Positions 18,281 through 35,787 of a DNA stretch of 64,000 nucleotides are shown piece after piece. Each line of letters starts with the position of its first letter. The stretch's first letter is position 1. The stretch spans positions 186,001 to 250,000 of the forward strand of contig NZ_JABTCG010000001.1 of the NCBI RefSeq assembly GCF_014610845.1, in the 5' to 3' direction. Source of the stretch: Maribacter arenosus. Its GTDB lineage: Bacteria; Bacteroidota; Bacteroidia; Flavobacteriales; Flavobacteriaceae. The position numbers were made by a program, and so were the translations under genes. Below the pieces are notes generated by a model. The model was not told where the DNA came from. It made no database searches and worked only from the letters and a program-made list of their open reading frames with translations.

Positions 18281-18754
18281 TCAGCTCTCAAGTAAATGCT
18301 CAAGGCTTTCGCTATCCACGATATGTTCGGTGATCGCAAATACTTGTTTTCTATTTTCCCTGACGGTCTTATAGAATTTGGCGATATCGTCTTCAAGCCC
18401 TTGGTGTTCCTCACGGAATAATCTAGAATCGTGTTTGAATGGATCTTGAATGGTCTGGGCAATATGGGTAATATGTTCGTCCACTCTTCGGAGAAGTTGG
18501 TCACTTGTTTTCTTATCTTCTAAAATACCCTGACCTATCGATTTTACAGCATCGAGATTCTCCTTTTTTGTTATCCATATAAAATATTTGTTCAACAATT
18601 TATGTAGAAAATGCAGGTCTTGTTTGTAGAACGTTAGGTCAGATTTCCAATGTTTGGTCAAAACATATAATTCATCCCAATCAGTCTGTTGTATAAAAGA
18701 GCCTTTGGGTCTCGTTCTATAATTTTCCATAAGCTTGAAATATAAATTCAACAT
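18281..18754 (-). CDS. Small helical protein, stress-island paralog A
   Basis: 157 residues, all-helical with coiled-coil character, no known domain recognised. It shares with the genes at 23162, 33843 and 35344 an N-terminal motif W/L-x-S-(D/E)-L-x(4-6)-(D/E)-L-x-F-L-x2-LL-x2-Y (here WKSDLTFYKQDLHFLHKLL), a second helix with DQLLRRVDEH, and a C-terminal helix with a (K)xxVFxI pattern. Translation may begin at 18754 or at the second Met (18730). It is the first gene behind site 4. The function is unknown; a small protein-interaction or hibernation role is a guess from context. Confidence 0.8.
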   Translation of the reverse strand: MLNLYFKLMENYRTRPKGSFIQQTDWDELYVLTKHWKSDLTFYKQDLHFLHKLLNKYFIWITKKENLDAVKSIGQGILEDKKTSDQLLRRVDEHITHIAQTIQDPFKHDSRLFREEHQGLEDDIAKFYKTVRENRKQVFAITEHIVDSESLEHLLES

Positions 18755-18767
18755 TTACGACGTTCAT

Positions 18768-18810
18768 TAAAGTTACCTTTAACCTAACGCAATTAATATG
18801 ACTTATATCA
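18768..18810 (-). promoter_or_regulatory. FNR/CRP-like box plus -7 element (site 4)
   Basis: On the minus strand the box TGATATAAGTCA (18810-18799) is followed after 23 bases by TAACTTTA (18775-18768), just upstream of paralog A. The outer bases extend the dyad to ATGA-N6-TCAT. Confidence 0.7.
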
Positions 18811-18832
18811 TAGTACGGATTTTGATATTGAG

Positions 18833-19516
18833 CTATTGGCTAATAATAGTACCGTCGCCCATTTCAATGATACGGTCGGTTTTTTCGGCAAAATCGTGAT
18901 CATGGGTCACTACCAATAAGGAAAGATTTCGCTCTACGGAAAGATTCTTGAAGATGTTCATCACATTTTGGGCATTATGGCTATCCAAATTGCCTGTGGG
19001 TTCATCGCCCATAATTATGGCCGGATCATTAATTAAGGCCCTTGCTATGGCAACACGTTGTTTTTGTCCTCCCGAAATTCGGGAAGCCAATTTGTTGGCT
19101 TGCTCCTGAATATCGAGAAGTTTTAACTTTTCCATCGCGTCATATTCAATTTCTTCAAAAGATTTCAGCCCTAGTTTTTTAGCTGGTAGCATCACATTTT
19201 CAAGCACTGTGAATTCAGAAAGTAGGTAGTGAAATTGAAAAACGAAGCCAATATTGCTATTCCTGATTTTGGCCAATTCTTCATGATGTTTGCCGGAAAC
19301 CAATTCGCCGTTTAAGAACAGTTCCCCTTCATAATCGGTATCCATGGTAGATAGGATATATAATAAAGTGGATTTACCACAGCCCGATTTACCCATTATA
19401 GACACAAATTCACCATGTTTTATACTAAAATTAATATCCTTTAGAACATGAAAAAGGACAGGTTCCCGAAAATATTTATTGATGTTCCTTGCCTCTAAGA
19501 TGGTATTGTTCCCCAT
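18833..19516 (-). CDS. ABC transporter ATP-binding protein (LolD/MacB type)
   Basis: 227-residue ATPase with Walker A GKSGCGKST (about 42-50), Q-loop FQFHYLL, signature SGGQKQRVAIARA and Walker B IIMGDEPTG, as in the MacB/LolD/FtsE group that powers mechanotransmission rather than transport through the membrane core. It is the last gene of a leftward set: adaptor (20778-21863), permease (19519-20781) and this ATPase, which form a complete MacAB-like export system. Only 2 nt separate it from the permease gene. Confidence 0.93.
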   Translation of the reverse strand: MGNNTILEARNINKYFREPVLFHVLKDINFSIKHGEFVSIMGKSGCGKSTLLYILSTMDTDYEGELFLNGELVSGKHHEELAKIRNSNIGFVFQFHYLLSEFTVLENVMLPAKKLGLKSFEEIEYDAMEKLKLLDIQEQANKLASRISGGQKQRVAIARALINDPAIIMGDEPTGNLDSHNAQNVMNIFKNLSVERNLSLLVVTHDHDFAEKTDRIIEMGDGTIISQ

Positions 19517-19518
19517 GG

Positions 19519-20781
19519 TTATTGTCCTCTGATTATTTCTACCGGGTCAATTTTCCTTGCTTTTCTAGAGGGCAGGTAACCTGCCAGGAATGTTGAGATC
19601 ATCGCAAAAGAGATTCCTATAACATAATACCAAACACTATAGTTTACAGGATATGTTTTAATGGTGGGTAGCGCTTCTGTCTCAAAGGGCAAAGTATCTA
19701 TTACCGACGATATGGAATAGCCAACCACTAAGCCTAAAATACCTCCAAAAAGACCTATAAGAATAGCTTGACTGATAAAAATATACTGTACATCTTTGCC
19801 CGAAAAACCGGTAGCCTTTAAAATGGCAATGTCATTCATTTTCTCATAAATCATCATATTGAGAATATTATAGATGCCAAACCCGGCAACGATCAATAAG
19901 GTAATTGATACGGCATAGGTGATAAGGTTTCTTATGGATGTACCCGTTTCGAATTGTGCATTAGCCGTTTTGATATCCACGGCCGTAAGGTTGAACTGAT
20001 TTTCGATATTCCGTGCCATTGGAACCGCTTTTTCGATATCGAATAATTTAACATTAATGTCGGTGAAATAGTTCTTTGGCTCCCCTAATATTTTTTGCAC
20101 TGTTTTAAGGGATGCAAAACTCTGGATATTGTCAATGTCGGCCAGGCCACTTTGGTAAATACCTACGATCTTTAAAGGGAACAGGTCGCCACGAACGGTA
20201 CTGATCTGAACAGTATTTCCGATATCAAGGGACATCTTTTCAGCAACCCCGGAACCTATTAAGATCCCGTTTTCATAATTGTTCAAAGCCTCTGGACTTC
20301 CCTTGACCACATAATCCCCAAAATTGAAAAGGCGTACTTCCTCCAAAACATCAATACCCACAAGATTGCCCCCTAATTCGATAGAACCGGATATATAGAA
20401 TATCTGTGATTTCAGTTGGGGGATTGCACCTTTTACATCCGGATTTTTTCTTAATTCCTGGATCAAGGGCAGGGCATTATGAATTTTGGCCTGGGTTAAT
20501 TTTGGTTTTACCGAATGTACAAGCTTGAAACTATTTTCCCATTTATCATATAGATCTAAGGGTTGCCGTTCAGAAGGTTTTATCTCGTTATAAATATGAA
20601 CATGAGGAGTACGGTTTAAAATAAGTCCGTCTAAAAGACCGTTCAGGCCTGTCATAAAGCTAACAAGGATTATGAAAGTGCCAATTCCAAATGTGACCCC
20701 CAATGCGGCAATACTAGATTGTTTTATTCGGGATAGCAAGTGTGTTTTTGAAATACTCAATATGACCTTCCAATTGATCAT
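19519..20781 (-). CDS. MacB/FtsX-type ABC transporter permease
   Basis: 420 residues with one N-terminal helix (about 20-45), a large periplasmic MacB-PCD-like domain (about 46-280) and three C-terminal helices in an FtsX core, ending with LAGYLPSRKARKIDPVEIIRG, the family signature at the cytosolic end. It probably exports a small molecule, peptide or lipoprotein together with the adaptor upstream (4-bp gene overlap) and the ATPase downstream. Substrate unknown. Confidence 0.92.
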   Translation of the reverse strand: MINWKVILSISKTHLLSRIKQSSIAALGVTFGIGTFIILVSFMTGLNGLLDGLILNRTPHVHIYNEIKPSERQPLDLYDKWENSFKLVHSVKPKLTQAKIHNALPLIQELRKNPDVKGAIPQLKSQIFYISGSIELGGNLVGIDVLEEVRLFNFGDYVVKGSPEALNNYENGILIGSGVAEKMSLDIGNTVQISTVRGDLFPLKIVGIYQSGLADIDNIQSFASLKTVQKILGEPKNYFTDINVKLFDIEKAVPMARNIENQFNLTAVDIKTANAQFETGTSIRNLITYAVSITLLIVAGFGIYNILNMMIYEKMNDIAILKATGFSGKDVQYIFISQAILIGLFGGILGLVVGYSISSVIDTLPFETEALPTIKTYPVNYSVWYYVIGISFAMISTFLAGYLPSRKARKIDPVEIIRGQ

Positions 20782-21863
20782 TGTTTAGGTTTAATGATAT
20801 CAGTGTGCTCATCTATGCCCGAAAGTATTTCAACTTCCGTTAGGTTTTTGGATCCAATCTCAACGTTGACCGGACCGTCTTGGGTTTTTACGGTATGGTT
20901 GTCGATTAAGTATTCCAAGGGTATGGTCAGGGTATTTTCCTTTTCGGAAACAATGATATTGGCTTCACCGGCCAATCCGGGGAATAGTACTTCAGGAGCT
21001 GTTTCAAAAACAGCTTCTACCTTAAAAGTCTGGGAACGCTCATCTTTTTTAGGGTATATCTTATGTACTCGTCCCTCAAAGACTTCCTCGGGGTATGCAT
21101 CCAAGTTGACGATTACCTTTTGATACGGCTTTAACTTTACGATATCTACCTCGTCGACCAATAATTCAATTAAAAAATCATCCAAACTTCCAACACTGGC
21201 TAAGGGTTCCATAGTGGTCACTATTTCCCCAATATTTTTGTATATCGCATATACTCGTCCATTTATCTTACTTGTTATAGTGAATTCATTCGTGCTAACA
21301 ATGGCCGCTTGGTACGTGTTTTCGGCTTTTACTACCTTGTTTCTAAGCTCATCTTTGGTTCGTTCATAGTTGTTTTGAAGTACATTAAGATTGTTCAATG
21401 AAAGTTCATAGTTTAATTTCTTGATATCGTATTCTGCCTTTGAACCAATTTCTTGTTGCCATAAACGTTCCTGCCGCTTAAAATTTATAGAGTCGTTCTG
21501 TAGTTTTAATTTTGCTGTGTGTATTTCCTCGCGCAACCCTTCTAGAACAGCCGCGCTACCTTTGTAAGCTTCACGGGCATCCTGAAGGTTTATTTTGGTA
21601 TTTTCCCTGTTTAATTCAGGTGTTTTGTTATATATCTGAAAAAGCGGACTACCCTTAACGACACTATCACCTTCGTTCACGAACACTTTGTCTAAAATAC
21701 CTGCAACGGAGGAATATACGGCATATAAACTATCTGGCTGTACAAGGGCTGATGCGTATACGGATGCTACTAAAGTCTTTTTTTCAGGTTTTATTCTTAT
21801 CGTATCCTTACCGCAGGACAGAAGAAGTAAAACTAGTAAAAGGCTTAGCACTCTGTGCGCCAT
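20778..21863 (-). CDS. Periplasmic adaptor (HlyD/MacA-like membrane fusion protein), lipoprotein
   Basis: 361 residues from the chosen ATG at 21863. That start gives a clean lipoprotein signal (LLLVLLLLSCGKD), whereas the longer frame adds eleven odd residues in front. A first lipoyl half-motif (VAGILDKVFVNEGDSVVKGSPLF) is followed by a long coiled-coil hairpin (about 90-185), the second lipoyl half (ITSKINGRVYAIYKNIGEIV) and a beta-barrel domain. It joins the inner-membrane permease to an outer-membrane channel, for which no gene is present here. It follows cbpM by 55 nt. Confidence 0.9.
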   Translation of the reverse strand: MAHRVLSLLLVLLLLSCGKDTIRIKPEKKTLVASVYASALVQPDSLYAVYSSVAGILDKVFVNEGDSVVKGSPLFQIYNKTPELNRENTKINLQDAREAYKGSAAVLEGLREEIHTAKLKLQNDSINFKRQERLWQQEIGSKAEYDIKKLNYELSLNNLNVLQNNYERTKDELRNKVVKAENTYQAAIVSTNEFTITSKINGRVYAIYKNIGEIVTTMEPLASVGSLDDFLIELLVDEVDIVKLKPYQKVIVNLDAYPEEVFEGRVHKIYPKKDERSQTFKVEAVFETAPEVLFPGLAGEANIIVSEKENTLTIPLEYLIDNHTVKTQDGPVNVEIGSKNLTEVEILSGIDEHTDIIKPKQ

Positions 21864-21918
21864 AATAAAGGTCTTAAGATTAAAAATATTGAACAATGGA
21901 AGTCAATACGAACTTAAA

Positions 21919-22212
21919 TCATTCATAAAACCGCAATTTATTCCTAAGGGAAATATTTTCTTTATGCATAAATTCAATTCGGTCTAATAATTCACTAATT
22001 ACTGCGATACCTTCTAGATTAATGTTAAGGTCGGCATGTAGACGTAATATTTTCTCAACATTTGGGAGTTCTTCATATAGGATGTATTCTTCGTTTTCTT
22101 TTGTAATTACCTCGATCAACCCAAATTCATATAACTCGATGATGAATTGGGTGTTAATCCCATGACTGAAGCAAAAATCCTTGACCGCTATATAGTTAAA
22201 TTGTTCCATCAT
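21919..22212 (-). CDS. cbpM: Chaperone modulator CbpM
   Basis: 97-residue MerR-like helical protein that binds the J-domain of CbpA and restrains it. Seen: an N-terminal winged-helix-like region ([15 protein letters not shown]), then LYEFGLIEV and a C-terminal helix pair with [22 protein letters not shown], the conserved LRLHxDLxxNLxGxxxxxxLL pattern of CbpM. Its start overlaps the end of cbpA by 4 bp, indicating translational coupling and a fixed inhibitor-to-chaperone ratio. Confidence 0.88.
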
Positions 22213-23108
22213 TTGCCCTTATTTATATTGGCCAATTGTTTAAAGAGTTCTTTTTCTTTTGAAGATAAATGGGTAGGCATCTTAACGGCATAGGTAATGA
22301 ACAGATCTCCAAATTGCCCTTCTTTTTTATAGACCGGGAATCCTTTCGATTTCAATTTTACCATAGTTCCGTTTTGCGTCTCGGGTTTAACGTTCAGTTT
22401 CACCTTCCCATCAAAGGTGTCAACGGTGATCTCCCCACCCAAAACTGCGGTATATAGATCTATTTCCACAGTACGGTGTAGATTATTGCCATCCCTTTTA
22501 AAAGGGGTGTTGTTCTCGATAGCGAAGGTGATAAATAAATCACCCTTAGGACCTCCATTGCGTCCAGGACCTCCATGCCCTTTTATTTTTATGGTTTGCC
22601 CATTTTCAATACCGGCTGGTATGGTGATGCGTATATTCTTTCCATTTACAGTTAATGTCCGTTTATGGGTCGAATATACATCCTTCAATTGCAATTGAAG
22701 TTCAGCATTATAGTCTTGCCCCCTATACTTTACTTGCCTACCACGTGTGAATCCCCCTGAAGACCTACCACCGAACATGGACTCAAAAAAGTCGGAAAAA
22801 TCGTGTTCCCCAAATCCACCAGAGGTTTGGTATTGGTAGCCTCGTTGTTGTTGTGCTTTCTTCGCTTTTTCTATTTCTTCTGCATGTTGCCAGTCTTTCC
22901 CGTACTCATCGTACTTTTTTCTATTATCGGCATTGCCCAACACTTCATGGGCTTCGTTGATCTGTTTAAACCTTCGTTCTGCTTCTGGATCATTTGGGTT
23001 GACATCCGGATGATATTTTCGGGCAAGTTTGCGATACGCTTTTTTTACCTCACTTTGTGAAGCCTTTTTAGAAATACCCAATACATTATAATAGTCAATG
23101 TAGTCCAT
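22209..23108 (-). CDS. cbpA: Curved-DNA-binding/J-domain co-chaperone CbpA
   Basis: 299 residues. The J-domain (1-70) contains the DnaK-stimulating HPD in [12 protein letters not shown], followed by a Gly/Phe-rich linker ([22 protein letters not shown]) and the two C-terminal substrate domains. There are no zinc-finger CxxCxGxG repeats, which separates CbpA from DnaJ. In Escherichia coli CbpA is a stationary-phase and low-phosphate protein. Here it lies 53 nt downstream of paralog B, whose promoter has site 5, so it is likely part of the stress regulon. Confidence 0.92.
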
Positions 23109-23161
23109 TTTCAGCGTTCACTTTATACTGTTCGAAGTTTGGTATTAAGAAGATTGTTGAT

Positions 23162-23614
23162 TTACGCTTGAAAAACAAGATCATTATTATCCTTATTCAT
23201 TTGGATAACTTCGTTCGCAATGTTCAAGATTTCTTTTTTGACCGTTTTACAGTCTTTCATGATCGATGATTTGCATTTTTCAATCCAAGTTTGTTCCTTC
23301 TGTAGAGAAGTCGGATCGTAATCCAAAGCGCCATTCATAATATCAACCAACAATTGATGTTGATCTTCCACTCTTTTTTTTAGACGTCCACAATTATAGC
23401 AAAGGTCTTGGAAACGCATAAGGCTTTCGCGAACCTCATCCAAATTTTCAGTATGCACGATCTCATCAAAATAACGATCTAAAAGTTGTTGTAAAAAACT
23501 TAATTCCTTATTATTCAATGCCAATTCTGATTTTAAATCCTCACATTCCTGAATATACTTTTGATAAGTCCCCAAAGGGTTCAATTTATCCGGATTAGAT
23601 TTTACTTTTCCCAT
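23162..23614 (-). CDS. Small helical protein, stress-island paralog B
   Basis: 150 residues from the start I choose, ATG 23614. The frame is open up to an ATG at 23650, but the -7 element lies at 23639-23632, so that codon would be upstream of the transcript. All-helical, with the shared motif LKSELALNNKELSFLQQLL near the N-terminus, ENLDEVRESL (compare ENLDAVKSIG in paralog A) and KKRVEDQHQLLVDI. Cysteines in LCYNCGRL and at two later positions are not shared by the other paralogs. It heads the apparent operon with cbpA, cbpM and the ABC exporter. Function unknown. Confidence 0.78.
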   Translation of the reverse strand: MGKVKSNPDKLNPLGTYQKYIQECEDLKSELALNNKELSFLQQLLDRYFDEIVHTENLDEVRESLMRFQDLCYNCGRLKKRVEDQHQLLVDIMNGALDYDPTSLQKEQTWIEKCKSSIMKDCKTVKKEILNIANEVIQMNKDNNDLVFQA

Positions 23615-23631
23615 GATAAGATGATTTTTAA

Positions 23632-23705
23632 TAAAATTACCGTAATGCATTTTTTCAGAATATGATTTTTATCATAACACTGGAAGTAGGATCAAATTAT
23701 CTTAC
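23632..23705. promoter_or_regulatory. FNR/CRP-like box serving divergent genes (site 5)
   Basis: The dyad TATGAT-TTTT-ATCATA spans 23661-23676 (core 23663-23674) and is a perfect 6-bp inverted repeat. Leftward, TAATTTTA (23639-23632) is at the 23-base spacing and precedes paralog B. Rightward, TATCTTAC (23698-23705) is at the same spacing before the sensor kinase, with a 70-nt leader. This implies possible autoregulation of the kinase/regulator pair. Confidence 0.7.
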
Positions 23706-23774
23706 TTTTATATATTCATAACATTCCTTTTTTGGTCTCAAAACGTATGGAAATTTGAAACAACGCCAGTAAGA

Positions 23775-25019
23775 ATGAAGGTTTTTGCCGAAAACAACTA
23801 TATTTTTAACTTGCTCTCTGAAGCAGTATCTGAAGGGATATTAGTGGTTGATAAAGATCATATTATCGTAGCGACCAATAATAATGCAGATCAAATGTTC
23901 GGTTATGATAACCACGAACTTATAGGGCAACGAGTGGATATTTTGGTGCCCGAACCACATAGTAAAAACCACGGTCAACATGTAGACAAGTTTTTCGAAA
24001 CCAATAAGTCAGGTAAAATGATGGTGGATCGTCTGCTGTACGGCCTTCGAAAGAATAATGAGAAATTCCCCGTAAAAATAGACCTATATCCATTCGTTTT
24101 TCATGGTATCGATTACGTATTCGCCCTGATTTTCGATAAGACCGAGATCAGCAAAAGGGATTTGCAGATAAAAGAGCTAAACGAACATCTCGAGAAAAAA
24201 ATAAAGACCCGTACTTTAGAGCTTAGGGAAACGGTAGCCATGCTACAAAAAGAGATCAAAAGAAGGAAAGATGCCGAAAAGACGATAAAATTAGCACTTC
24301 AGCGCGAGCGTGAACTCAGTGAATTGAAGACAAAATTCTTATCTTTAGTCTCCCATGAATTCAAGACACCATTAAGTGGGATCCTTACTTCTGCCACATT
24401 AGTGGGCAAGTATAAGGAAGCTTCCGATCAAGAAAGACGCGATAAGCATTTAACGACGATTATAGCGGAGGTTAGACATTTGAACAGTATCCTAACCGAT
24501 TTTCTTTCTATCGAAAGGCTTGAAAAAGGAAAGGAAATCTATAATTTCACCAAATTTTCGTTGAGTAAAGTGGTTAACGAGGTGGTCTATAACGCCAATA
24601 TGCTATTAAAAAACGGGCAACAGATCAATTATCCACACAATATAGATGAGGTTGTCATTTATCAAGATGAGAAAATCGTTACCCTTATACTAACCAATTT
24701 ACTCTATAATTCCATAAAATACTCTCCGGAGGATTCTGAAATCGATATTACTTTTGAAGTTGGACAGGCGGGTATGGTTTTGAAGATAAAAGATCACGGG
24801 ATTGGTATTCCCGAAAAGGACCAAAAGCATATTTTTGAACGATACTTCAGGGCGGAAAATGCCCTTTTGAACCAAGGGACGGGTATTGGTCTAAATATCA
24901 TAAAGGACCATATCAATAACCTTGATGGAAAGATTTATTTTAAGAGCAAGGAGAATGAGGGAACAATATTCACTGTGGAACTACCAATAGATAATCGAAT
25001 CCTTTTAGGGTTAAAATAG
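23775..25019 (+). CDS. Soluble PAS-domain histidine kinase (FixL-like organisation)
   Basis: 414 residues without transmembrane segments. A PAS domain (about 8-125) is followed by a coiled-coil linker (about 125-185), HisKA with His194 in LVSHEFKTPL, and a HATPase_c domain with N box NLLYNSIKYSP and G boxes KDHGIGI and GTGIGLNI. In the PAS domain, VPEPHSKNH places His66 where FixL has its haem-ligand His, and Arg86 follows exactly 20 residues later, like FixL Arg220. Both positions also occur in non-haem PAS domains, so haem binding is a hypothesis. The next gene encodes its probable regulator 3 nt downstream, and site 5 lies in its promoter. Confidence 0.92.
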   Translation: MKVFAENNYIFNLLSEAVSEGILVVDKDHIIVATNNNADQMFGYDNHELIGQRVDILVPEPHSKNHGQHVDKFFETNKSGKMMVDRLLYGLRKNNEKFPVKIDLYPFVFHGIDYVFALIFDKTEISKRDLQIKELNEHLEKKIKTRTLELRETVAMLQKEIKRRKDAEKTIKLALQRERELSELKTKFLSLVSHEFKTPLSGILTSATLVGKYKEASDQERRDKHLTTIIAEVRHLNSILTDFLSIERLEKGKEIYNFTKFSLSKVVNEVVYNANMLLKNGQQINYPHNIDEVVIYQDEKIVTLILTNLLYNSIKYSPEDSEIDITFEVGQAGMVLKIKDHGIGIPEKDQKHIFERYFRAENALLNQGTGIGLNIIKDHINNLDGKIYFKSKENEGTIFTVELPIDNRILLGLK

Positions 25020-25022
25020 CGA

Positions 25023-26078
25023 ATGATGAGTAAAGTTTTATTGATAGAAGATGATTCCATACTACGGGAAAATACAGCCGAGCTTTTAGGGTTATCCGAT
25101 TATGATGTGATAACCGCTTCCAATGGTCTCAAGGGGGTTGAGGTCGCAAAACAAGCCTTGCCCGATGTGATCATCTGTGATATTATGATGCCCGAATTGG
25201 ACGGTTATGCGGTATTACAACAATTAGGCGATGATCCTTCAACAAAACACATACCGTTCATATTCTTATCGGCCAAAACAGAGCGCAAAGATATCCGTAA
25301 AGGAATGAACCTTGGGGCTGATGATTATTTGACCAAACCTTTTGAGGAATCTGAACTTATTAGCGCCATAGAAAGCAGATTGGCCAGGGCCGCTATTTTG
25401 AGGGAAATTAATAGTTCGGAAAGTGGAAATGCCAATCAAACCGGATTAGGCATACGTACTATCCATGATTTCAAGAATTATCTGGACGATAATGGTCAAG
25501 AATTTGAATTCACCCAAGGACAAGAAATCTATCGTGAAGGAAGCAATGTTCATATGGTCTATTTGATAACAAAGGGTATTGTAAAGACCCATAAATTGGA
25601 TGAAAATGGCAAGGAATTGATTACTTCGATCTATTATGAGGATGAGTTCTTCGGATTTTCATCACTTACGGCCCATGAAATCTATGAAGAATATGCCACG
25701 GCCATGGAAGATACCAAACTTGTTGGGGTAAGTAAAGATAAATTAAGAACCGTATTAGAAGAAAACCACGAGCTTGCCATAGAGTTAATGCATGTTTTGG
25801 CTAAAAACCTCACAGAGGCAAAAAAACAGTTACTTGAAATGGCCTATGGCTCTGTACGTAAGAAAACGGCCAGTACCTTGTTGAAATTCGCCAATAAACT
25901 GGAACAGGATAAGCAGGGGAACATACATATTTTACGTAGTGATTTGGCAAACGTAGCCGGTATGGCCACTGAAACATTGATCCGTACCCTTTCTAGCTTT
26001 AAAAAAGAAGGTCTTATTGCTATGGAAGATCATAAAATAAGAATATTGGATCAAGAAACCTTAAGCCGTACCTATTGA
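25023..26078 (+). CDS. Response regulator fused to CRP/FNR-type DNA-binding module
   Basis: 351 residues: receiver (about 3-122, phosphoacceptor Asp53 in IICDIMMPELDG, switch Lys105), a cyclic-nucleotide-binding-like beta-roll (about 150-265) and a winged helix of the HTH_Crp class (about 275-345). The roll has FFGFSSL instead of the cAMP-binding FGE...RxA motif, and there is no FNR-type cysteine cluster, so phosphorylation is the likely signal. In the recognition helix (MATETLIRTLSSF), Glu317 and Arg321 hold the E-x3-R pair that reads TGA half-sites in CRP and FNR, matching the TGAY-N4-RTCA boxes of this island. Cotranscribed with the PAS kinase. Confidence 0.93.
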   Translation: MMSKVLLIEDDSILRENTAELLGLSDYDVITASNGLKGVEVAKQALPDVIICDIMMPELDGYAVLQQLGDDPSTKHIPFIFLSAKTERKDIRKGMNLGADDYLTKPFEESELISAIESRLARAAILREINSSESGNANQTGLGIRTIHDFKNYLDDNGQEFEFTQGQEIYREGSNVHMVYLITKGIVKTHKLDENGKELITSIYYEDEFFGFSSLTAHEIYEEYATAMEDTKLVGVSKDKLRTVLEENHELAIELMHVLAKNLTEAKKQLLEMAYGSVRKKTASTLLKFANKLEQDKQGNIHILRSDLANVAGMATETLIRTLSSFKKEGLIAMEDHKIRILDQETLSRTY

Positions 26079-26103
26079 GCATCTTTAATAAAGTATTTGA
26101 ACA

Positions 26104-26146
26104 TGATCGTAATCATTTACTAGCTAGGGACAAAGCAGTAAATTTA
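26104..26146 (+). promoter_or_regulatory. FNR/CRP-like box plus -7 element (site 6)
   Basis: Box TGATCGTAATCA at 26104-26115, then 23 bases, then TAAATTTA at 26139-26146, 27 nt before the universal stress protein start. The box is within 30 bp of the end of the regulator gene. Confidence 0.7.
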
Positions 26147-26172
26147 TCGCCATAATCAAAATCAACCTAACG

Positions 26173-27012: not shown

Positions 27013-27023
27013 CAACTTCTATT

Positions 27024-27323
27024 TCAGTTTTGGGATTGAATAATTTGAATGATTTCCCCTTTTTGAAGCACACCGGATTGTCGCCAAACCTGTTTGCCGT
27101 TTTTAAATAAGAGCATCGTAGGCACTCCACGAACTTGGTATTTTGCGGCAATTGATGGGTTTTTGTCCACATCGATTTTTACGATTTTAACCCCATCGCC
27201 CATATCGTTCTTCACTTCTTTGAGAATTGGTGCCAGCATTTTGCAAGGACCACACCAGTCGGCGAAAAAATCGACCAGAACCGGGGTTTCCGAGTTAATG
27301 ATTTTATTGAAACTACTTTTCAT
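27024..27323 (-). CDS. trxA: Thioredoxin
   Basis: 99-residue thioredoxin with the active site WCGPCK (in FFADWCGPCKMLAPIL), the cis-Pro segment RGVPTMLLF and a C-terminal helix. It reduces protein disulfides and would be recharged by the thioredoxin reductase encoded at 39088-40053. I choose ATG 27323; the upstream extension to 27347 (MRGKFVKT) is not part of the usual fold and overlaps the promoter region. It is divergent from a universal stress gene over site 7, which places a redox protein under the stress regulator. Confidence 0.92.
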   Translation of the reverse strand: MKSSFNKIINSETPVLVDFFADWCGPCKMLAPILKEVKNDMGDGVKIVKIDVDKNPSIAAKYQVRGVPTMLLFKNGKQVWRQSGVLQKGEIIQIIQSQN

Positions 27324-27343
27324 GGTTTTAACGAATTTGCCTC

Positions 27344-27417
27344 GCAAATTAGCAAAATACCAAGACTTCTAAACTGACCAATATCATGGTTTATAATATT
27401 GATGAAAGCTAACTTTG
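27344..27417. promoter_or_regulatory. FNR/CRP-like box between thioredoxin and USP operon (site 7)
   Basis: Box TGACCAATATCA at 27375-27386. Rightward, TAACTTTG (27410-27417), a perfect TAnnTTTG, sits at the 23-base spacing and serves the USP operon. Leftward, TAATTTGC (27351-27344) is at the same distance from the dyad and precedes thioredoxin; it is a weaker match. Confidence 0.72.
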
Positions 27418-27440
27418 ATAAAACGCGTAAATCATTTAAC

Positions 27441-28286
27441 ATGAGAAAGATTTTGGTTCCAACGGATTTTTCAGACAATGCCTTCAATGCCTTAAAATAT
27501 GCTTGTCATGTCTTCAAGTATGAGAAAAGTGAAATCTTTGTCATGCATGCCTATGCCGATGAGGTCTACCAAAAGGACAGACTCACGAAAAGAAGCCTTT
27601 TGGACGAATTAAAGGAAAAAACATTCAGAAAATCGGAGGAACGATTAAAAACGGTTTTAAAGGACATAAAACACCTTTATCCCAATCCACAACATAAGTA
27701 CAGATCAATATCCGCCTTCGGTACCCTGATCGATGAGGTGAATGACCTTGTTAACCAAGAAAATATGGATGTTGTTGTTATGGCCACAAGGGGAGAGACC
27801 AATGATCGAAGCCTAACCTTCGGAAGTAATACGTTACAAGTCTTAAAGTATATAAGTTGTCCGGTACTGGCCATACCGGAGGGCTATGCCTATCATGCCC
27901 CCAAAGAAGTGCTATTTCCCACCAATTATTTGGCGCCCTATAAAAGGCGTGAATTAAAATTACTTTGTGAAATGTCGGGTTCGTTTAGATCCACTATCCA
28001 TATGTTGTATATCGATCCTATTAAAAAGCTTACCCTACGACAAGAAGACAACCAGCAATTTCTTAGGGATTGCCTTCCAAAGGCCAAATTAGTATTTGAG
28101 ACCACCCAGGAAAAAGATAAGACCGTTGCTATTACCAAATACATTTTACATAAAGATATTGATATGTTGGTTTTGGTGAATTCGAGACACTCATTCCTTG
28201 AGGATATGTTGTCACAATCTACGTTGGATAAGATTGGACTTCACGTCAAGATTCCATTTCTGGTCTTGCAGAATTTGTTTAGATAA
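27441..28286 (+). CDS. Universal stress protein, second domain degenerate
   Basis: 281 residues from ATG 27441. The frame is open from an ATG at 27399, but the -7 element at 27410-27417 lies downstream of that codon, and MRKILVPTDFSDNAF is the normal family start. The first domain has ATRGETNDRSLTFGSN (first Gly of the nucleotide motif replaced by Ala). The second carries the shared tail VNSRHSFLEDML instead of an ATP site. First gene of a three-USP operon with 17- and 2-nt gaps. Confidence 0.9.
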   Translation: MRKILVPTDFSDNAFNALKYACHVFKYEKSEIFVMHAYADEVYQKDRLTKRSLLDELKEKTFRKSEERLKTVLKDIKHLYPNPQHKYRSISAFGTLIDEVNDLVNQENMDVVVMATRGETNDRSLTFGSNTLQVLKYISCPVLAIPEGYAYHAPKEVLFPTNYLAPYKRRELKLLCEMSGSFRSTIHMLYIDPIKKLTLRQEDNQQFLRDCLPKAKLVFETTQEKDKTVAITKYILHKDIDMLVLVNSRHSFLEDMLSQSTLDKIGLHVKIPFLVLQNLFR

Positions 28287-28303
28287 CTAAAAAAAGTCGA
28301 ACA

Positions 28304-29152: not shown

Positions 29153-29154
29153 AT

Positions 29155-30009: not shown

Positions 30010-30150
30010 CGAAATTGTAAACCCTGTTATTCGAAGAGTAATTGAGAATAGCCAATATGAATAGGAATGTTTAATTCACTAACAAAGTTAAAAGGTTAAA
30101 CAATTTTATTTTTTGCTTACCCATCGAAATAATTAAAAAGATATAAACGC

Positions 30151-30558
30151 ATGAAGAATAGTGGAGTTTGGCTCGATAAGGAAAAGGCGCATATTGTAAC
30201 GCTCGTCAAAGAATCCGAATCCTTTGAAACCTTGTTTTCAAATATTGAAACTTTTAGGCCATTTGGTGGCTCGGGTACGAAGTCAGCCAAATGGGGTCCG
30301 CAGGATGTCGTTCAGGACAGTAAGTTTTTAGAGCGCGAGAAGCACCAATTTAAAGCATATTTCAAGAACTTGGCAGAAGCCATAAAAACTGCGGATAACA
30401 TCGCCCTTTTTGGTCCGGCTGAAACGGCGGCAAAGTTTAAAAAGGAATTGGATACAAACTATCCGCAATTAGCTGCCAAGGTTAAGATCGTAAGCAAGGC
30501 GGATAGTATGACCGACAACCAAATAAGGAAATTGGTTCGGGAGTACTTCAGAAATTAA
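30151..30558 (+). CDS. Small protein, possible eRF1-like (baeRF) fold
   Basis: 135 residues, unknown function. The N-terminus KNSGVWLDKEKAHIVTL and the C-terminal part NIALFGPAETAAKFKKEL...LVREYF resemble small bacterial proteins related to the archaeo-eukaryotic release factor and host-attachment (baeRF) group, judged by eye only. If right, it may act on stalled or idle ribosomes, which would suit the island's hibernation theme. It is 18 nt before an MscS channel gene. No FNR-like box is seen upstream. Confidence 0.6.
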   Translation: MKNSGVWLDKEKAHIVTLVKESESFETLFSNIETFRPFGGSGTKSAKWGPQDVVQDSKFLEREKHQFKAYFKNLAEAIKTADNIALFGPAETAAKFKKELDTNYPQLAAKVKIVSKADSMTDNQIRKLVREYFRN

Positions 30559-30576
30559 TTCTGAAAATAAACTGGT

Positions 30577-31473
30577 ATGCAACGATTAGATGATTTATTA
30601 AAGGATCCCTTAGTGCTTCAAGGACTGCAGTTGTTGATTTGGCTGGTCATTATCATCTTAGGAATAGGATTTCTCAGGAGATTGGCCAAGAATCGAATCG
30701 AAAACATAAGTATTAGGTATAAGGCACAAAAAGGTATCGAGATTATCGGATATATCCTTATTGCAATATTGTTATTAGTGACATTTACTTTAGATAGTGT
30801 AAGGGACTATACGATTATTATCGGACTTTTTACAGCTGGACTCACTTTTACCCTGCAAGAATTGATTTTAAGTATTGCAGGTTCTTTTTATATTTTTTTC
30901 TTGAGGGTCTATAAACCTGGTGACCGTATTGAGATGAACAATATTAAGGGTGATGTAATCGACATTGATAGTATTTATACGACGATTATGGAAATAGGGG
31001 AATGGGTGAACAGCGATAATTATTCGGGTAGGATCATAAAAATCAGTAATGCATTTGTTTTCAAAGGGCCCATTAAGAACTATTCAATGGACTTCCCTTT
31101 TGTATGGGACGAACTCAACATTCTTATAACTTATGACTCCGATCTTGAATTGGCGAAGAAGACAATTATGGATGGGGCTACAGAATTATTATCCGACTAT
31201 ACGAATGAATCCAAAACGAACTGGGCTAAAATGGTGCAACGCTATTATATAGAAGATGCGAAAATAGACCCATCGTTGGCCATAAGTTTAACCGATAATT
31301 GGATTGTACTTAATCTAAGGTACATTACCGACTATAAATTGAGAAGGAGTGTAAAACATAGATTGTTTGAAAAAATAGAACGCTCGATTAAGTTGACCAA
31401 GGGCAAGGTTAAAATAGCCTCTACCACCTTGCAATTGCTTAAAATCCCTGAAGTTGAAGTGCATGTAAAGTAG
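30577..31473 (+). CDS. Small-conductance mechanosensitive channel (MscS family)
   Basis: 298 residues with three transmembrane helices: about 15-35, 55-75 and 83-110. The third is the pore helix, TAGLTFTLQELILSIAGSFYIFF. It is followed by the beta domain opening KPGDRIEMNNIKGDVIDIDSIYTTI and an alpha/beta cytosolic cage. It would release solutes on osmotic downshift. The gene lies between the small eRF1-like gene and the ATP-cone nuclease, a combination whose meaning is not clear. Confidence 0.9.
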   Translation: MQRLDDLLKDPLVLQGLQLLIWLVIIILGIGFLRRLAKNRIENISIRYKAQKGIEIIGYILIAILLLVTFTLDSVRDYTIIIGLFTAGLTFTLQELILSIAGSFYIFFLRVYKPGDRIEMNNIKGDVIDIDSIYTTIMEIGEWVNSDNYSGRIIKISNAFVFKGPIKNYSMDFPFVWDELNILITYDSDLELAKKTIMDGATELLSDYTNESKTNWAKMVQRYYIEDAKIDPSLAISLTDNWIVLNLRYITDYKLRRSVKHRLFEKIERSIKLTKGKVKIASTTLQLLKIPEVEVHVK

Positions 31474-31551
31474 GACTATTGTTGCTTACAACCGCGTGTC
31501 AACGACAATTGATATAGGCTGGTTCTTAGCCAGTTCAGAAACTGAAATTTT

Positions 31552-32397
31552 ATGAAAGAACAAAAAGCAATTGAGATCATTAAATCTTCTGGTGACAAAG
31601 TTCGGTTTTCGTTAACGAAATTAAGAAAGTCATTGCAGCGGAGCGGAGCGGATGAAGCTTTGGTAGCTCAAATCGTGAATCAAGTAAGGGACGAGCTTTA
31701 TCAAGGCATATCAACCCGCGAAATATATAATCGGGCCTTTGCTCTATTAAAGAAGAAAAAAGCGGTCTTTGCTTCTAAATACAAATTGAAAAAAGCAATT
31801 TACGAATTGGGCCCCACGGGCTTCCCTTTTGAGAAATTCGTTGCGGCTATCTTGCTATATTCGGGCTACACCACTGAGGTGGGCAAGATAATTCAAGGCC
31901 ATTGCGTAACCCATGAGGTAGATGTGTTCGCTAAGAAAAATGGATTGGTAGCTGTTATTGAATGTAAATTCCATAGTGAGGAAGGGCGCAATTGCAACGT
32001 TAAAATCCCCTTGTATATCCATTCGAGATATGAGGATATAAAAAAACACTGGAACCGGAAAAGAAATGATAACCATACATTAGATAAAGGTTGGGTGGTA
32101 ACAAACACCCGCTTTACAGAAGATGCCATTGCTTATGGCAAATGTGTAGATTTGTATTTATTAAGTTGGGATGTACCCGAAGGCGACGGGTTAAAAGACC
32201 GAATCGATAGACTTGGACTATATCCCATTACCGTTTCTACGCTGTTGAGCAAGCGGGAGAAGCAGTTTTTGTTGAGTCGGGATATTGTACTATGTCGTCA
32301 ATTGTTGAATGATCATTTTTTTCTTGACCATTTGGAAATCCAAGAACCACGAAAAGAAAAAATAATGAAAGAACTTCGCCAATTATGTAATTGTTGA
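31552..32397 (+). CDS. ATP-cone domain fused to an Mrr-like PD-(D/E)xK nuclease
   Basis: 281 residues. Residues 3-85 form an ATP-cone, the nucleotide sensor of ribonucleotide reductases and NrdR (IEIIKSSGDKVRFSLTKLRKSL). Residues 90-200 carry a restriction-endonuclease core: Glu94 in FPFEKFVAAIL, Asp124 in HEVDVFA and Glu137-x-Lys139 in AVIECKF, i.e. a complete set of metal-binding and catalytic residues. The tail (about 205-281) is helical and unassigned. ATP or dATP binding could gate DNA or RNA cleavage. It is followed after 7 nt by a beta-CASP nuclease gene, suggesting joint nucleic acid processing. Confidence 0.85.
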   Translation: MKEQKAIEIIKSSGDKVRFSLTKLRKSLQRSGADEALVAQIVNQVRDELYQGISTREIYNRAFALLKKKKAVFASKYKLKKAIYELGPTGFPFEKFVAAILLYSGYTTEVGKIIQGHCVTHEVDVFAKKNGLVAVIECKFHSEEGRNCNVKIPLYIHSRYEDIKKHWNRKRNDNHTLDKGWVVTNTRFTEDAIAYGKCVDLYLLSWDVPEGDGLKDRIDRLGLYPITVSTLLSKREKQFLLSRDIVLCRQLLNDHFFLDHLEIQEPRKEKIMKELRQLCNC

Positions 32398-32404
32398 CCT
32401 CCTC

Positions 32405-33775
32405 ATGGATACGATAAAAGTCACATTTTTAGGAGCTTCGGGAACAGTAACGGGATCTAAATTCTATTTGGAAACACCAGAACTTAACCTAATGGTCGAT
32501 TGCGGTATGTTCCAAGGCTTGAAAGAGCTTAGGGAAATGAACTGGGTACCCTTGCCTGTGGATGTCAAAAATTTGGATTTTATTTTACTCACGCACGGGC
32601 ATTTAGATCATACAGGGTATTTGCCCAGATTACTACAGCAAGGTTTTCATGGGCAAATTTTAGGAACTTCACCCACATTGGCCATAACCTCGATCATTCT
32701 AAAGGACAGTGCCAAGATCCATGAAGAAGAGGCCGAAAAAGCTAATAGGGAAGGGTATTCAAAGCATAAACCTGCGCTTCCTTTCTTTACCCTTGAAGAT
32801 GCGGAAAAGACCACTGCACTTTTTTCTTCCATTGAAAATATGGAGTGGGTGACACTTTCACCAAATATAAAATTCAGAACGAAATACAATGGCCATATTA
32901 TAGGTGCTACATTCATAGAGTTGGATATTTTAAGGAAACGCTTTGTGTTTTCGGGTGATGTTGGTCGAGAAGAAGATGTATTGTTGGCACCTCCAGAACG
33001 ACCGGAATGGGCAGATTACCTATTTATCGAGAGTACCTATGGCAATAAAAACCACCCTAAAGAAGATGTCGAGGGTATATTGACGCAGTTGGTAAAAAAG
33101 ACCATCAATCAAAGGGGAACCTTGATTGTTCCTTCATTCGCTGTTGAACGATTACAGTCATTGATGTATCAATTGTGGATGCTTTATAAAAAGAACAAAA
33201 TTCCAAATATCCCTATATTTATTGATAGTCCAATGGGCAATAATGTATTATCGGTCTTTGAACAGTTTCCCGAATGGCATAAGCTTTCCCTAAAAGAATA
33301 CCATGCAATGTGTAAGCATATGACCATCATTAGTTCTTACAAGGAAACCTGGGAAACCATTGATGATCCTCGGCCAAAAATCGTAATCGCCGGAAGTGGA
33401 ATGGTAACCGGGGGTCGGGTACTTACTTACCTGAAGCAGTTGATAGATGTTGAAAGTACCACAGTGTTATTGGTGGGATATCAAGCTGAGGGAACCCGGG
33501 GCAAACAACTATTGGAAGGAGCGTTCGAATTGAAACTTTTTGGAAAGTACTACCCTGTAAAGGCTAAGATAATGCACCTCGAAAGCCTATCGGCCCATGC
33601 AGACCAAAGTGGATTACTACATTGGTTGTCAGGATTGAAAAATATTCCCGAAAGGGTGTTTTTGGTCCATGGCGAGCCAACGGCTTTAGATGCGTTTAGA
33701 AGTAAACTAATTTATAATTTAAAATGGAATGTGCATATTCCCAAGTTGTATGAGACCATTGAACTAATGGTCTGA
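32405..33775 (+). CDS. MBL-fold beta-CASP ribonuclease (YSH1-like)
   Basis: 456 residues. A metallo-beta-lactamase core shows HGHLDH (His64, His66, Asp68, His69) and the VFSGDVGRE motif, followed by a beta-CASP domain and the RNA-specific C-terminal GSGMVTGGR and SAHADQ motifs. These are zinc-dependent endo- or exo-nucleases of the CPSF-73/RNase J superfamily. The single polypeptide is shorter than RNase J and lacks its long C-terminal domain. It is cotranscribed with the ATP-cone nuclease. RNA is the probable substrate. Confidence 0.92.
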   Translation: MDTIKVTFLGASGTVTGSKFYLETPELNLMVDCGMFQGLKELREMNWVPLPVDVKNLDFILLTHGHLDHTGYLPRLLQQGFHGQILGTSPTLAITSIILKDSAKIHEEEAEKANREGYSKHKPALPFFTLEDAEKTTALFSSIENMEWVTLSPNIKFRTKYNGHIIGATFIELDILRKRFVFSGDVGREEDVLLAPPERPEWADYLFIESTYGNKNHPKEDVEGILTQLVKKTINQRGTLIVPSFAVERLQSLMYQLWMLYKKNKIPNIPIFIDSPMGNNVLSVFEQFPEWHKLSLKEYHAMCKHMTIISSYKETWETIDDPRPKIVIAGSGMVTGGRVLTYLKQLIDVESTTVLLVGYQAEGTRGKQLLEGAFELKLFGKYYPVKAKIMHLESLSAHADQSGLLHWLSGLKNIPERVFLVHGEPTALDAFRSKLIYNLKWNVHIPKLYETIELMV

Positions 33776-33783
33776 TCACTGGC

Positions 33784-33826
33784 TGATTTATGTCATTGTT
33801 ATGTTGATGTGCCCTTTGTAATTTTA
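33784..33826 (+). promoter_or_regulatory. FNR/CRP-like box plus -7 element (site 8)
   Basis: Box TGATTTATGTCA at 33784-33795 begins 9 nt after the nuclease stop codon. After 23 bases comes TAATTTTA (33819-33826), 16 nt before the ATG of paralog C. Confidence 0.7.
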
Positions 33827-33842
33827 CATAAACTCAAATACC

Positions 33843-34277
33843 ATGACTTCCCACAAAAAGTTGACAAAAGAGGTTCAAACATCAAAGATGACCGAAATGT
33901 ACAGGGAGTACCAGAATTGGAAATCCCATTTACAACTCGTTTATGACGAACTAACCTTTATCGAACATTTACTAAATTCGTATGTGTTTGAACCAAATAC
34001 ACCAAATTTGTTTGAACGCTTGCAAGACTACCAGGCACGGATAAAAAAAACAAGGGCCAAAAGGGAAATGGTTTGCAAGATGATTTTAAGCCATGAAAGG
34101 AATATTGGCGGAATGATCGAATGTACAGATACGGCATGCGATAATTTTTATAATCAAAAACATGAAAAACTTAAAGCCGAAACCGTAAGTTTCATGGAAG
34201 ATTTTAAAATCCTTAAATCGGAAATATTCGAATATGCAGGAGGGATCTTAAAAAAACGTAAACCCAGTACAAAATAA
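33843..34277 (+). CDS. Small helical protein, stress-island paralog C
   Basis: 144 residues, predicted helical throughout. Shared family motif NWKSHLQLVYDELTFIEHLL at residues 22-41. A basic central helix follows (QARIKKTRAKREMVCKMILSHERNIGGMIE), then a C-terminal helix FMEDFKILKSEIFEYAG. The N-terminus lacks any signal peptide, so it is cytoplasmic. It is monocistronic behind site 8 and convergent with the LytTR regulator gene. No function can be assigned. Confidence 0.8.
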   Translation: MTSHKKLTKEVQTSKMTEMYREYQNWKSHLQLVYDELTFIEHLLNSYVFEPNTPNLFERLQDYQARIKKTRAKREMVCKMILSHERNIGGMIECTDTACDNFYNQKHEKLKAETVSFMEDFKILKSEIFEYAGGILKKRKPSTK

Positions 34278-34294
34278 ACAAGGCTATATTGCCA

Positions 34295-34999
34295 TTACAA
34301 GGGAATCAGTCTATTTTCCAATTCTTCCTTATAAGACCTACTCATAGGTAACTTTGTGCCGAAGACTTCAACTTTGGTGCTACTCCAATTGTCTATTTTG
34401 GTCACATTCACAATAAAAGATCTGTGAATTCTAATGAACTTTGTAGAGGGTATCTGCTCTAAGAATGCTTTCATGGTCGATAGTACCATAAAATCACCTT
34501 CTGTAGTAACTATATTAATATAATCACCCATAGCTTCGATCCAAAGAATAGAATGAAGAAATATCCTTTTCTTTTGAAGATCCGTAGTTACCGTAATAAA
34601 TTCTTGATTGGCCTTATGTTTAGTTAATTGTTTTTGTTTCCTGATCGCACGCTCTATGGCCATTGCAAAACGGGCTTTATCAATCGGTTTTTGCAGGTAA
34701 TCGGTAATGTTGTTATAATCAAAAGCTTTTAATGCATAGTCGCTTTTATCCGAAATTAGTATGATTTGAGGAGGTTCTTCCAAAGCATCAAGTAAGTCAA
34801 AACCATTGACCACAGGCATTTCAATATCCAAGAGGATTAAATCGACCTTGTTTTTTCGGATAGCGTTTAAAGCCAGGATACCATTTGCATAATCGCCCAA
34901 AACATTCAGATGGGTGTGCTTTTTGGCCAATTTTGTGATTACTGCCCGTTGGGTTTCAGAATCTTCGACAACAACGGTATTCAAGGTTTTAGTATTCAT
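34295..34999 (-). CDS. LytTR-type response regulator
   Basis: 234 residues: receiver (about 5-122, Asp58 in LILLDIEMPVVNG, switch Lys in LQKPIDK) and a LytTR DNA-binding domain (about 140-234) with FIRIHRSFIVNV and MSRSYKEEL motifs. Such regulators bind paired direct repeats of about 9 bp. The partner kinase (usually HPK7/LytS type) is not adjacent. Upstream is the inverted repeat TGACA-N7-TGTCA (35047-35063), about 50 bp before the start codon, which might be its own operator or another factor's. Confidence 0.9.
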   Translation of the reverse strand: MNTKTLNTVVVEDSETQRAVITKLAKKHTHLNVLGDYANGILALNAIRKNKVDLILLDIEMPVVNGFDLLDALEEPPQIILISDKSDYALKAFDYNNITDYLQKPIDKARFAMAIERAIRKQKQLTKHKANQEFITVTTDLQKKRIFLHSILWIEAMGDYINIVTTEGDFMVLSTMKAFLEQIPSTKFIRIHRSFIVNVTKIDNWSSTKVEVFGTKLPMSRSYKEELENRLIPL

Positions 35000-35343
35000 C
35001 CGTGAATTCTTTATCGTTTCGTATCATAGAAAGTTGTAGAAAACCATGACATCGTAATTGTCAATAATGAGCCATGGCAAACCCCAAGATTATTATTGGC
35101 CATGAACAAAAATAAGGATACTAAATTTATTCTTCCCTAAAATATGTACAATTCACGAGGTACTTGATAAATATATACTCCTACAAACTCCCCTACAAAA
35201 CATACAAGTCGTTTTTGCGACTGATTTAAATCATTTATATAAATCGATAAAAAGGATACCTTGTGAAGAGGAGTTAGGGGGCTTCAAAAAAGGCCAAACC
35301 TAGCATAAAGTAGTTTCGTTAATTTTAATCAATATTCTCGAAA
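35000..35343. other. Intergenic region between LytTR gene and paralog D
   Basis: 344 bp without a credible gene. It holds an inverted repeat TGACA (35047-35051)/TGTCA (35059-35063) near the LytTR gene and the regulon site 9 at 35222-35264. About 80 nt of leader separate site 9 from the next ATG, longer than at most other sites. Confidence 0.6.
35222..35264 (+). promoter_or_regulatory. FNR/CRP-like box plus -7 element (site 9)
   Basis: Box TGATTTAAATCA (35222-35233) is a perfect 12-bp palindrome. TACCTTGT at 35257-35264 lies at the 23-base spacing; TA and TT match, TTTG does not fully. It serves the paralog D, lipoprotein and D-lactate dehydrogenase operon. Confidence 0.6.
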
Positions 35344-35787
35344 ATGAAAACTAAAAAGCAGATTTACAGGTATTTAGAGTGGAAAAGTCCAGAAGAAATG
35401 CACCAAACTTCATTGGAGTGGATTTCAGAATTGAAATTCGTTAGGGACGAGCAATTGTTTCTTAACGATTTAGTAAGGTCGTATACGCTGCAAATTACAG
35501 GTTTGGGCTTGCTTGACGAAAGTAGGAAGTTAATCACTGCTATCTCGAATTCGGAATCTGAGGCCGATCAACTTTTGAAGAAGGTCCAGGTACATGAAAA
35601 CCAATTATCGATTATGATCGATGATGTTGATCAGCCCAAAATGGAAAAAGCATATACGGAAACCCATAGGGATATGATCTTTGCCATTGATACTTATTTG
35701 GCCGATTATCGAAAATTAAAGGGTAGTCTATTCCAAATGATTTCAAAGGTCATGAAAAAAGATAAACAAAAAAGACTTCTTAACTGA
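35344..35787 (+). CDS. Small helical protein, stress-island paralog D
   Basis: 147 residues, helical. The family motif appears as EWISELKFVRDEQLFLNDLV (residues 25-44), followed by ADQLLKKVQVHENQLSIMIDD (like DQLLRRVDEH in paralog A) and a C-terminal YRKLKGSLFQMISKVMKK. It starts an operon with a lipoprotein (22-nt gap) and D-lactate dehydrogenase. No known domain recognised; role unknown. Confidence 0.8.
   Translation: MKTKKQIYRYLEWKSPEEMHQTSLEWISELKFVRDEQLFLNDLVRSYTLQITGLGLLDESRKLITAISNSESEADQLLKKVQVHENQLSIMIDDVDQPKMEKAYTETHRDMIFAIDTYLADYRKLKGSLFQMISKVMKKDKQKRLLN

Follow-up and report, generated by a model that had tools for sequence, protein, structure and literature searches.

The window analysed here, a stretch of 64,000 nucleotides from Maribacter arenosus (RefSeq assembly GCF_014610845.1, contig NZ_JABTCG010000001.1, positions 186,001 to 250,000), carries four small genes, A to D, each preceded by a copy of one palindromic box. 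What are the proteins that these genes encode, and in which programme do they serve? A first-pass annotation of the sequence had described them as small helical proteins with no known domain, kept as divergent paralogues under one regulator. From sequence comparison we conclude that the family is real, solid, new and unnamed, since its members detect one another and no Pfam, NCBIfam or PADLOC model covers them, and that it sits inside a known kind of regulon; the four proteins look like dedicated low-oxygen effectors. Regulons for low oxygen and dormancy have been studied extensively in mycobacteria, rhizobia and pseudomonads but, to our knowledge, have received little attention in Bacteroidota. 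The four genes are:

18281..18754, minus strand: family member A, 157 amino acids as listed; start probably at 18730, giving 149 amino acids
23162..23650, minus strand: family member B, 162 amino acids as listed; start probably at 23614, giving 150 amino acids
33843..34277, plus strand: family member C, 144 amino acids
35344..35787, plus strand: family member D, 147 amino acids; the type behind the first structure model

A family of small helical proteins

The open reading frames (ORFs) were confirmed where they had first been placed, at 18281, 23162, 33843 and 35344. With A alone as the query, a search of its own genome returned D (E value 5.6e-6), B (5.7e-5) and C (0.0024), together with a copy on contig C12 that is 47% identical. 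A profile of seven members matched eight places at E ≤10, the weakest being C20 (E 3.3e-5), and a wider profile matched the same seven strong places and C21 (E 2e-6); C20 appeared with the first profile only and C21 with the second only, both weakly. This genome holds at least seven clear copies, four in the window and three on C12. Profile searching, a check set in advance, found the four related to one another, and on these comparisons the resemblance of A, B, C and D is homology, beyond chance. The start of B is most likely at 23614 (MGKVKSN..., 150 amino acids), because the listed start at 23650 lies upstream of B's own -7 element; a relative of B in locus L104 begins MGKLVSS..., in line with this choice. 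For A, the start is probably at 18730 (MENYRTRPKG..., 149 amino acids), and several close relatives begin in the same way.

We asked how old the four types are. We typed 140 rows by the window protein that BLAST matched best and built a tree from them on few columns; 58 of its 137 inner branches stayed open. In it the 47 D-type and the 5 B-type rows each occupied one side of a branch, with Shimodaira-Hasegawa-like approximate likelihood ratio test (SH-aLRT) support of 93 and 91. One clade held 39 of the 43 C-type rows (SH-aLRT 97) and another 11 of the 13 A-type rows (91), and all four types recur in other genera. Gene order, scored in 20 of 80 loci, is partly kept: the labelled gene before C encodes a beta-CASP protein in 8/13 cases, and the labelled gene after D is a relative of one 220-amino-acid gene in 16/20. 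Since the types form branches across genera and gene order is partly kept, the phylogeny indicates that A, B, C and D are old paralogues and not the product of recent duplication, which agrees with their description as divergent paralogues.

We modelled D and A with AlphaFold from input alignments of 99 and 56 sequences; the models had mean predicted local distance difference test scores of 87.2 and 88.2 and a predicted template modelling score of 0.79 each. Both consist of three long helices (in D, residues 16-46, 57-93 and 98-146, behind a loose N-terminus). Direct-coupling analysis of 241 distinct members (effective number 193), which is independent of the models, gave H20-E85, E36-K126, K80-A114 and H84-H108 as the top four covarying pairs. 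Many top couplings lie on an antiparallel register of helices 2 and 3, with residue numbers summing to near 192, and others fit helices 1 and 2 antiparallel and helices 1 and 3 parallel. The predicted fold of the family is, by model and covariation alike, an antiparallel bundle of three helices.

The conserved core layer consists of H20, W26, H84, E85 and H108, and the bundle also has an E36-K126 pair; the covariation registers put W26, H84 and H108 at about the same height in the bundle. Of the 241 members, 220 retain W26, 188 have S28, 238 carry Glu or Asp at 36 and 239 carry Lys or Arg at 126. Positions 36 and 126 change together (EK 215, DR 14, ER 6, DK 2), and positions 80 and 114 swap charge in both directions (KE 37, RD 10, EK 10, DR 8). 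By paralogue, the H-W-H-E-H core is complete in D; C and A carry Tyr at position 20, and A also has Ile in place of E85; B lacks H20, W26, H84 and H108, as well as F130. The N-terminal pattern proposed at first is borne out by these counts in the family at large. The tails differ: 15 D-type rows have an invariant W13 and a KQKRLL-like end. Net charge (K, R, D, E) is near neutral, from -4 to +5.

Does the family belong to anything known? No Pfam or NCBIfam model reaches its curated cut-off with A, B, C or D, so the absence of a known domain noted at first holds; no single Pfam or NCBIfam family matches more than five of 99 members at E 0.01, and the PADLOC anti-phage defence models gave no match at E 0.01. 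The S30AE domain of hibernation-promoting factor (HPF) and the Usp domain are not among the matches of the four proteins at E 10, no HPF or nucleic-acid-binding family matched them above cut-off, and hemerythrin, ferritin and phasin models are absent from the matches shown for the four proteins and for the 99 members (25 of 29 families). Against solved structures, A found no relative by sequence (best E 0.27), and Foldseek found no match to the models of D and A in the PDB at E 0.001; the fold search with D gave a best VIA Z of 12.7, within the range of helical bundles lacking a true relative. Two candidates were set aside. A D-led profile hit only coiled-coil-like structures (best E 3e-4, a designed coiled coil by name), and a 738-amino-acid open frame in genome G086 that matched the first profile was lost with the better one and not counted as a fusion. 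The family is not described in any title or abstract opening that our literature searches turned up.

The promoter element, its regulator and their distribution

All four window genes are preceded by a box of consensus TGAYNNNNRTCA, a palindrome of the TGA-N6-TCA type:

18799..18810, minus strand: box of A, TGATATAAGTCA; -7 element TAACTT at 18770-18775, 29 bp from the box centre
23663..23674, between B and the kinase gene: box TGATTTTTATCA; TAnnTT 29 bp from the centre on both sides, at 23634-23639 and 23698-23703
33784..33795, plus strand: box of C, TGATTTATGTCA; -7 element TAATTT at 33819-33824
35222..35233, plus strand: box of D, TGATTTAAATCA; -7 element TACCTT at 35257-35262

The distance from box centre to TAnnTT is 29 bp for all four, and the palindrome before B has a second such element on the side of the divergently transcribed kinase gene. 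The genes had been said to start directly after their boxes; each indeed has a box at the same distance from TAnnTT, but that of D lies 122 bp before the start codon. In 241 distinct upstream stretches, 138 contained a box (153 boxes in all), and TAnnTT stood exactly 29 bp past the centre in 118 of the 153, whereas other spacings averaged 0.97 cases, with a maximum of five. Published work on a flavobacterium places the -7 element TAnnTTTG at -12 to -5 (PMC9723704). With that placement, the 29-bp spacing would put the box centre at -41.5. This is the class II position of CRP/FNR activators, and on the sequence patterns we regard the promoter layout as well supported.

A box lies within 300 bp upstream of 39/86 members, against 1.66 expected from shuffles, and the whole element occurs 97 times in the genome of M. 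arenosus, against 3 for the reversed pattern. One of the 97 (C12:163268-163308) precedes the C12 member at 162798-163238, and others stand before the HPF gene (15560) and universal stress protein (USP) genes (26104, 27375) of the window. By type, the element was found before 7/7 B, 45/78 C, 53/108 D, 9/16 A and 5/18 other members, counted with near copies kept in the loci of the Flavobacteriaceae, the bacterial family of M. arenosus, and of a D-type peptide search. Outside the Flavobacteriaceae, three loci (L207, L208 and L216) have paired boxes 22-23 bp apart before the family gene, which suggests two regulator dimers side by side. A correctly spaced -7 element lies to either side of the palindrome at 27375-27386 (window 27346-27441), one per strand; the USP gene, listed with a TTG start at 27399, would then begin at ATG 27441, and the other side faces a short ORF at 27024-27347.

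Which regulator might act on these promoters? Two adjacent genes stand out:

23775..25019, plus strand: PAS histidine kinase with a FixL-like heme-PAS domain, His66 aligned with the FixL His
25023..26078, plus strand: response regulator with matches to receiver (REC), cNMP_binding and HTH_Crp_2 domains, the presumed activator

The PAS domain of the kinase matched FixL (E 1.9e-12) and DosP (1.5e-8), and its His66 aligns with a FixL His that we take to be the haem ligand; of 53 rows, 14 are gapped at this position, and 38 of the other 39 have His. We examined 30 of the 97 element sites, taking the nearest downstream ORF by a simple rule (four divergent pairs gave one gene twice). Five of the genes so assigned were scanned, and they encode a haem-copper oxidase subunit I, a pyruvate:ferredoxin-type oxidoreductase (PFOR-type), pyruvate phosphate dikinase (PPDK), a molybdopterin oxidoreductase and a rhodanese. 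Because a FixL-like sensor and oxidase and fermentation-type genes behind the element come together, low oxygen is the likely signal, and the oxygen limitation mentioned in the first-pass annotation fits this picture. Its proposal of a single regulator stands as far as one kind of promoter and retention of the family with the regulator go; that the REC-CRP protein directly binds the boxes is our inference.

We next asked whether family and regulator co-occur, in surveys that covered Bacteroidota and took forward for scoring no more than the 13 or 7 top first-look candidates of each genome. Among 100 genomes of the Flavobacteriaceae, the wider profile detects the family in 45 at E ≤1e-4, the first profile detects it in 40 at E 1e-3, and 42 have the full-length regulator; genome G002, which matched in the receiver part only, was not counted. 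The regulator occurs in 34 of the 45 family-bearing genomes and in 8 of the 55 others (Fisher 8e-10). A phylum sample of 296 genomes, that of M. arenosus included, contained the family in 30, the regulator in 43 and both in 26, that is, the regulator in 26/30 family-bearing genomes vs 17/266 others (Fisher 6e-22); outside the Flavobacteriaceae it was found in 15/17 family-bearing genomes. Family copy number rises with the number of promoter elements (Spearman 0.56). On these counts, family and regulator tend to share genomes in several bacterial families of the class. The regulon has a sharp promoter signature, searchable in flavobacterial genomes, and exposes a nameless protein family. The 80 of 149 relatives kept from the D-type peptide search were all from Flavobacteriaceae, from presumed flavobacterial genera or under broader Bacteroidota titles. 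A divergent subgroup (L088, L090, L091) is without the box and has a second weak relative directly adjacent; in its genomes (G073, G039, G029) the regulator was not found at cut-off.

Gene order and neighbours

Family genes of the window share their cluster with USP genes and with the following gene:

15628..15927: HPF neighbour, S30AE domain

Behind B, on its own strand, come a dnaJ-type and a MerR_2 gene, a pair that we take to resemble CbpA-CbpM; beyond it, still on that strand, lie genes read by eye as an ABC exporter-like set, the whole occupying window 18833-23108. Directly behind D, a gene for a 220-amino-acid protein with a lipoprotein-like start and no Pfam family (window 35810-36472) recurs in the cluster of other genera, as does one for a 135-amino-acid protein, also with no Pfam family (window 30151-30558). 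The M. arenosus genome has a second stress cluster at C12:155000-200000 (L008, L009, L040), with three more members, a USP gene, baeRF and a pyridoxamine-oxidase-like protein; by eye it also contains PEP (phosphoenolpyruvate) synthase, FtsH and further USPs. Many promoter elements and a second REC-CRP regulator lie in this cluster too.

Outside the Flavobacteriaceae, we scanned 18 of 114 listed neighbours, plus one more, from 20 loci, one of which (L212) has no member at threshold. No constant neighbour of family genes was seen among those scanned. Stress and fermentation types were Hsp20, a Usp-domain gene, PTA, acetate kinase, acetyl-CoA hydrolase and BrxC; the others were YkuD, two tRNA synthetases, KAS III, a beta-lactamase-type protein, TauE, a peptidase and some without a match. 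A family gene precedes pta and the acetate kinase gene ackA in L216 and an acetyl-CoA hydrolase/transferase gene in L224, adjoins hsp20 in L215 and L220, stands beside a PEP-synthase/PPDK-type gene in L218 (labelled by BLAST to a gene named by eye) and lies two genes from the regulator itself in L209, but some members adjoin housekeeping genes.

Possible functions and related regulons

What would such proteins do? When oxygen falls, the FixL-like heme-PAS kinase (23775-25019) would activate the REC-CRP/FNR regulator (25023-26078), which would bind TGAYNNNNRTCA boxes centred at -41.5 and act as a class II activator on promoters with the Bacteroidota -7 element. Four such promoters in the window and at least one on C12 would drive members of the three-helix-bundle family. 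Our guess is that these proteins work in stoichiometric amounts as scaffolds or adaptors that bind partners, and so hold client proteins or sequester them, in a survival programme with USPs, HPF and DnaJ/Hsp20; the common bundle might serve as the frame, and the differing tails (the W13 region and the D-type KQKRLL-like end) might set the client for each paralogue. We favour this scaffold reading over a cofactor or proton site, a chaperone, ribosome binding and kinase feedback. For the whole explanation, a low-oxygen kinase/REC-CRP regulon with helical partner-binding scaffold effectors, we judge the chances of being right and wrong to be about equal. Sequestration, ribosome or DNA binding and higher-order assembly had been suggested at first, and neither sequence, model nor fold search singles out one of them.

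Several observations weigh against this explanation. At cut-off, 11 of the 45 family-bearing Flavobacteriaceae are without the regulator and 8 of the 42 regulator-bearing genomes without the family, and the co-occurrence tests ignore shared ancestry. The box also precedes 260 of 932 other genes of the same loci and so marks the whole regulon, not the family alone. The full element was found before 119/227 members from the Flavobacteriaceae and D-type search loci and before 0/20 members outside the Flavobacteriaceae, where 9/20 have a box within 200 bp with another spacing. Of the 100 sampled Flavobacteriaceae, 99 have at least one copy of the element, and the 55 that lack the family have a median of 12. 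Other regulators therefore probably use the element as well; there is a second REC-CRP gene, 44% identical, at C12:195575. In the kinase, the Arg aligned with the FixL Arg is kept in 29 of 44 ungapped rows. The nearest ORF is 261 bp from the oxidase element and 294 bp from the PFOR-type one, which makes these assignments less sure, and no gene fusion or fold match named a partner.

Instead of a partner, the bundle could bind a small molecule: H20, W26, H84, E85 and H108 would take up metal, haem or a proton, and the protein would respond to redox state, metal or pH at low oxygen, or act as a store. In 200/241 members H84 and H108 occur together, and their losses coincide (Fisher 5e-11), H20 and E85 are coupled and both present in 141/241 (Fisher 7e-24), the full set occurs in 6/20 members outside the Flavobacteriaceae, and by covariation all these residues lie near one bundle level. 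The Fisher tests, however, ignore that related rows share states by descent. A and C have Tyr20, A is without E85 and B lacks four of the five residues. The His pair is replaced by Gln-Gln in five members and by Lys-Lys in two, a pattern that a buried hydrogen-bond layer would explain as well as a ligand site; we consider such binding unlikely. It is more doubtful still that the His-Trp-His layer with H20-E85 is a working site (metal, haem, or a proton or redox switch) defining a new class of low-oxygen effector, which the paralogues tune or lose stepwise from D (complete) through C (Tyr20) and A (Tyr20, no E85) to B (without the site); copies with and without the site may then work together as hetero-oligomers.

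Neighbouring genes prompt other readings. The dnaJ and MerR_2 genes behind B, the hsp20 genes adjoining members in L215 and L220 and a gene read by eye as ftsH before the member at L009:10692 would suit chaperone-like holdases that guard clients in oxygen and energy limitation, but such neighbours may merely share the regulon and the sequences have no holdase-specific feature, which leaves this idea rather unlikely. Ribosome- or nucleoid-binding hibernation factors acting beside HPF are suggested by the HPF and USP genes of the same cluster, with the element before both; one survey reports that baeRF-1 genes occur in conserved neighbourhoods with HPF (PMC6514570). The near-neutral charge of the proteins and the absence of any match above cut-off to HPF or nucleic-acid-binding families make this role improbable. 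By analogy with FixT of rhizobia, the proteins might bind the kinase or regulator as feedback adaptors. B and the kinase gene diverge from a common palindrome, and family and regulator co-occur, but at least seven clear copies in one genome, and genomes with the family and without the regulator, render feedback very improbable. We nearly dismiss the possibility that these are unrelated coiled-coil proteins alike by composition: matches to coiled-coil families and structures are weak and scattered, while the members detect one another and have a conserved polar core, compensating charge changes and kept gene order.

If the proteins are partner- or cofactor-binding effectors, part of how these bacteria survive without oxygen would be explained. 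Overall, the system resembles the FixLJ/FixK, FNR/Anr and DosR regulons in its PAS kinase homologous to FixL, its CRP/FNR-type output domain, its USPs and a single type of box that precedes haem-copper oxidase and fermentation-type genes. It differs from them in that receiver and CRP/FNR DNA-binding parts form one protein and that the promoter is built on the Bacteroidota -7 element, and we know of no counterpart of the helical family in those regulons. The NmpRSTU oxygen regulon of Myxococcus xanthus likewise places a USP and a cbb3 oxidase under two-component control; there the regulator is NtrC-like, and the part of the report on which we draw notes no counterpart of the helical family (PMC11841059). 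In common with our family, baeRF-1 occurs in conserved neighbourhoods with a hibernation factor, and the second cluster of M. arenosus includes a baeRF gene; baeRF-1, however, has an RNase H fold core and a proposed link to the ribosome (PMC6514570), whereas the proteins described here are predicted three-helix bundles.

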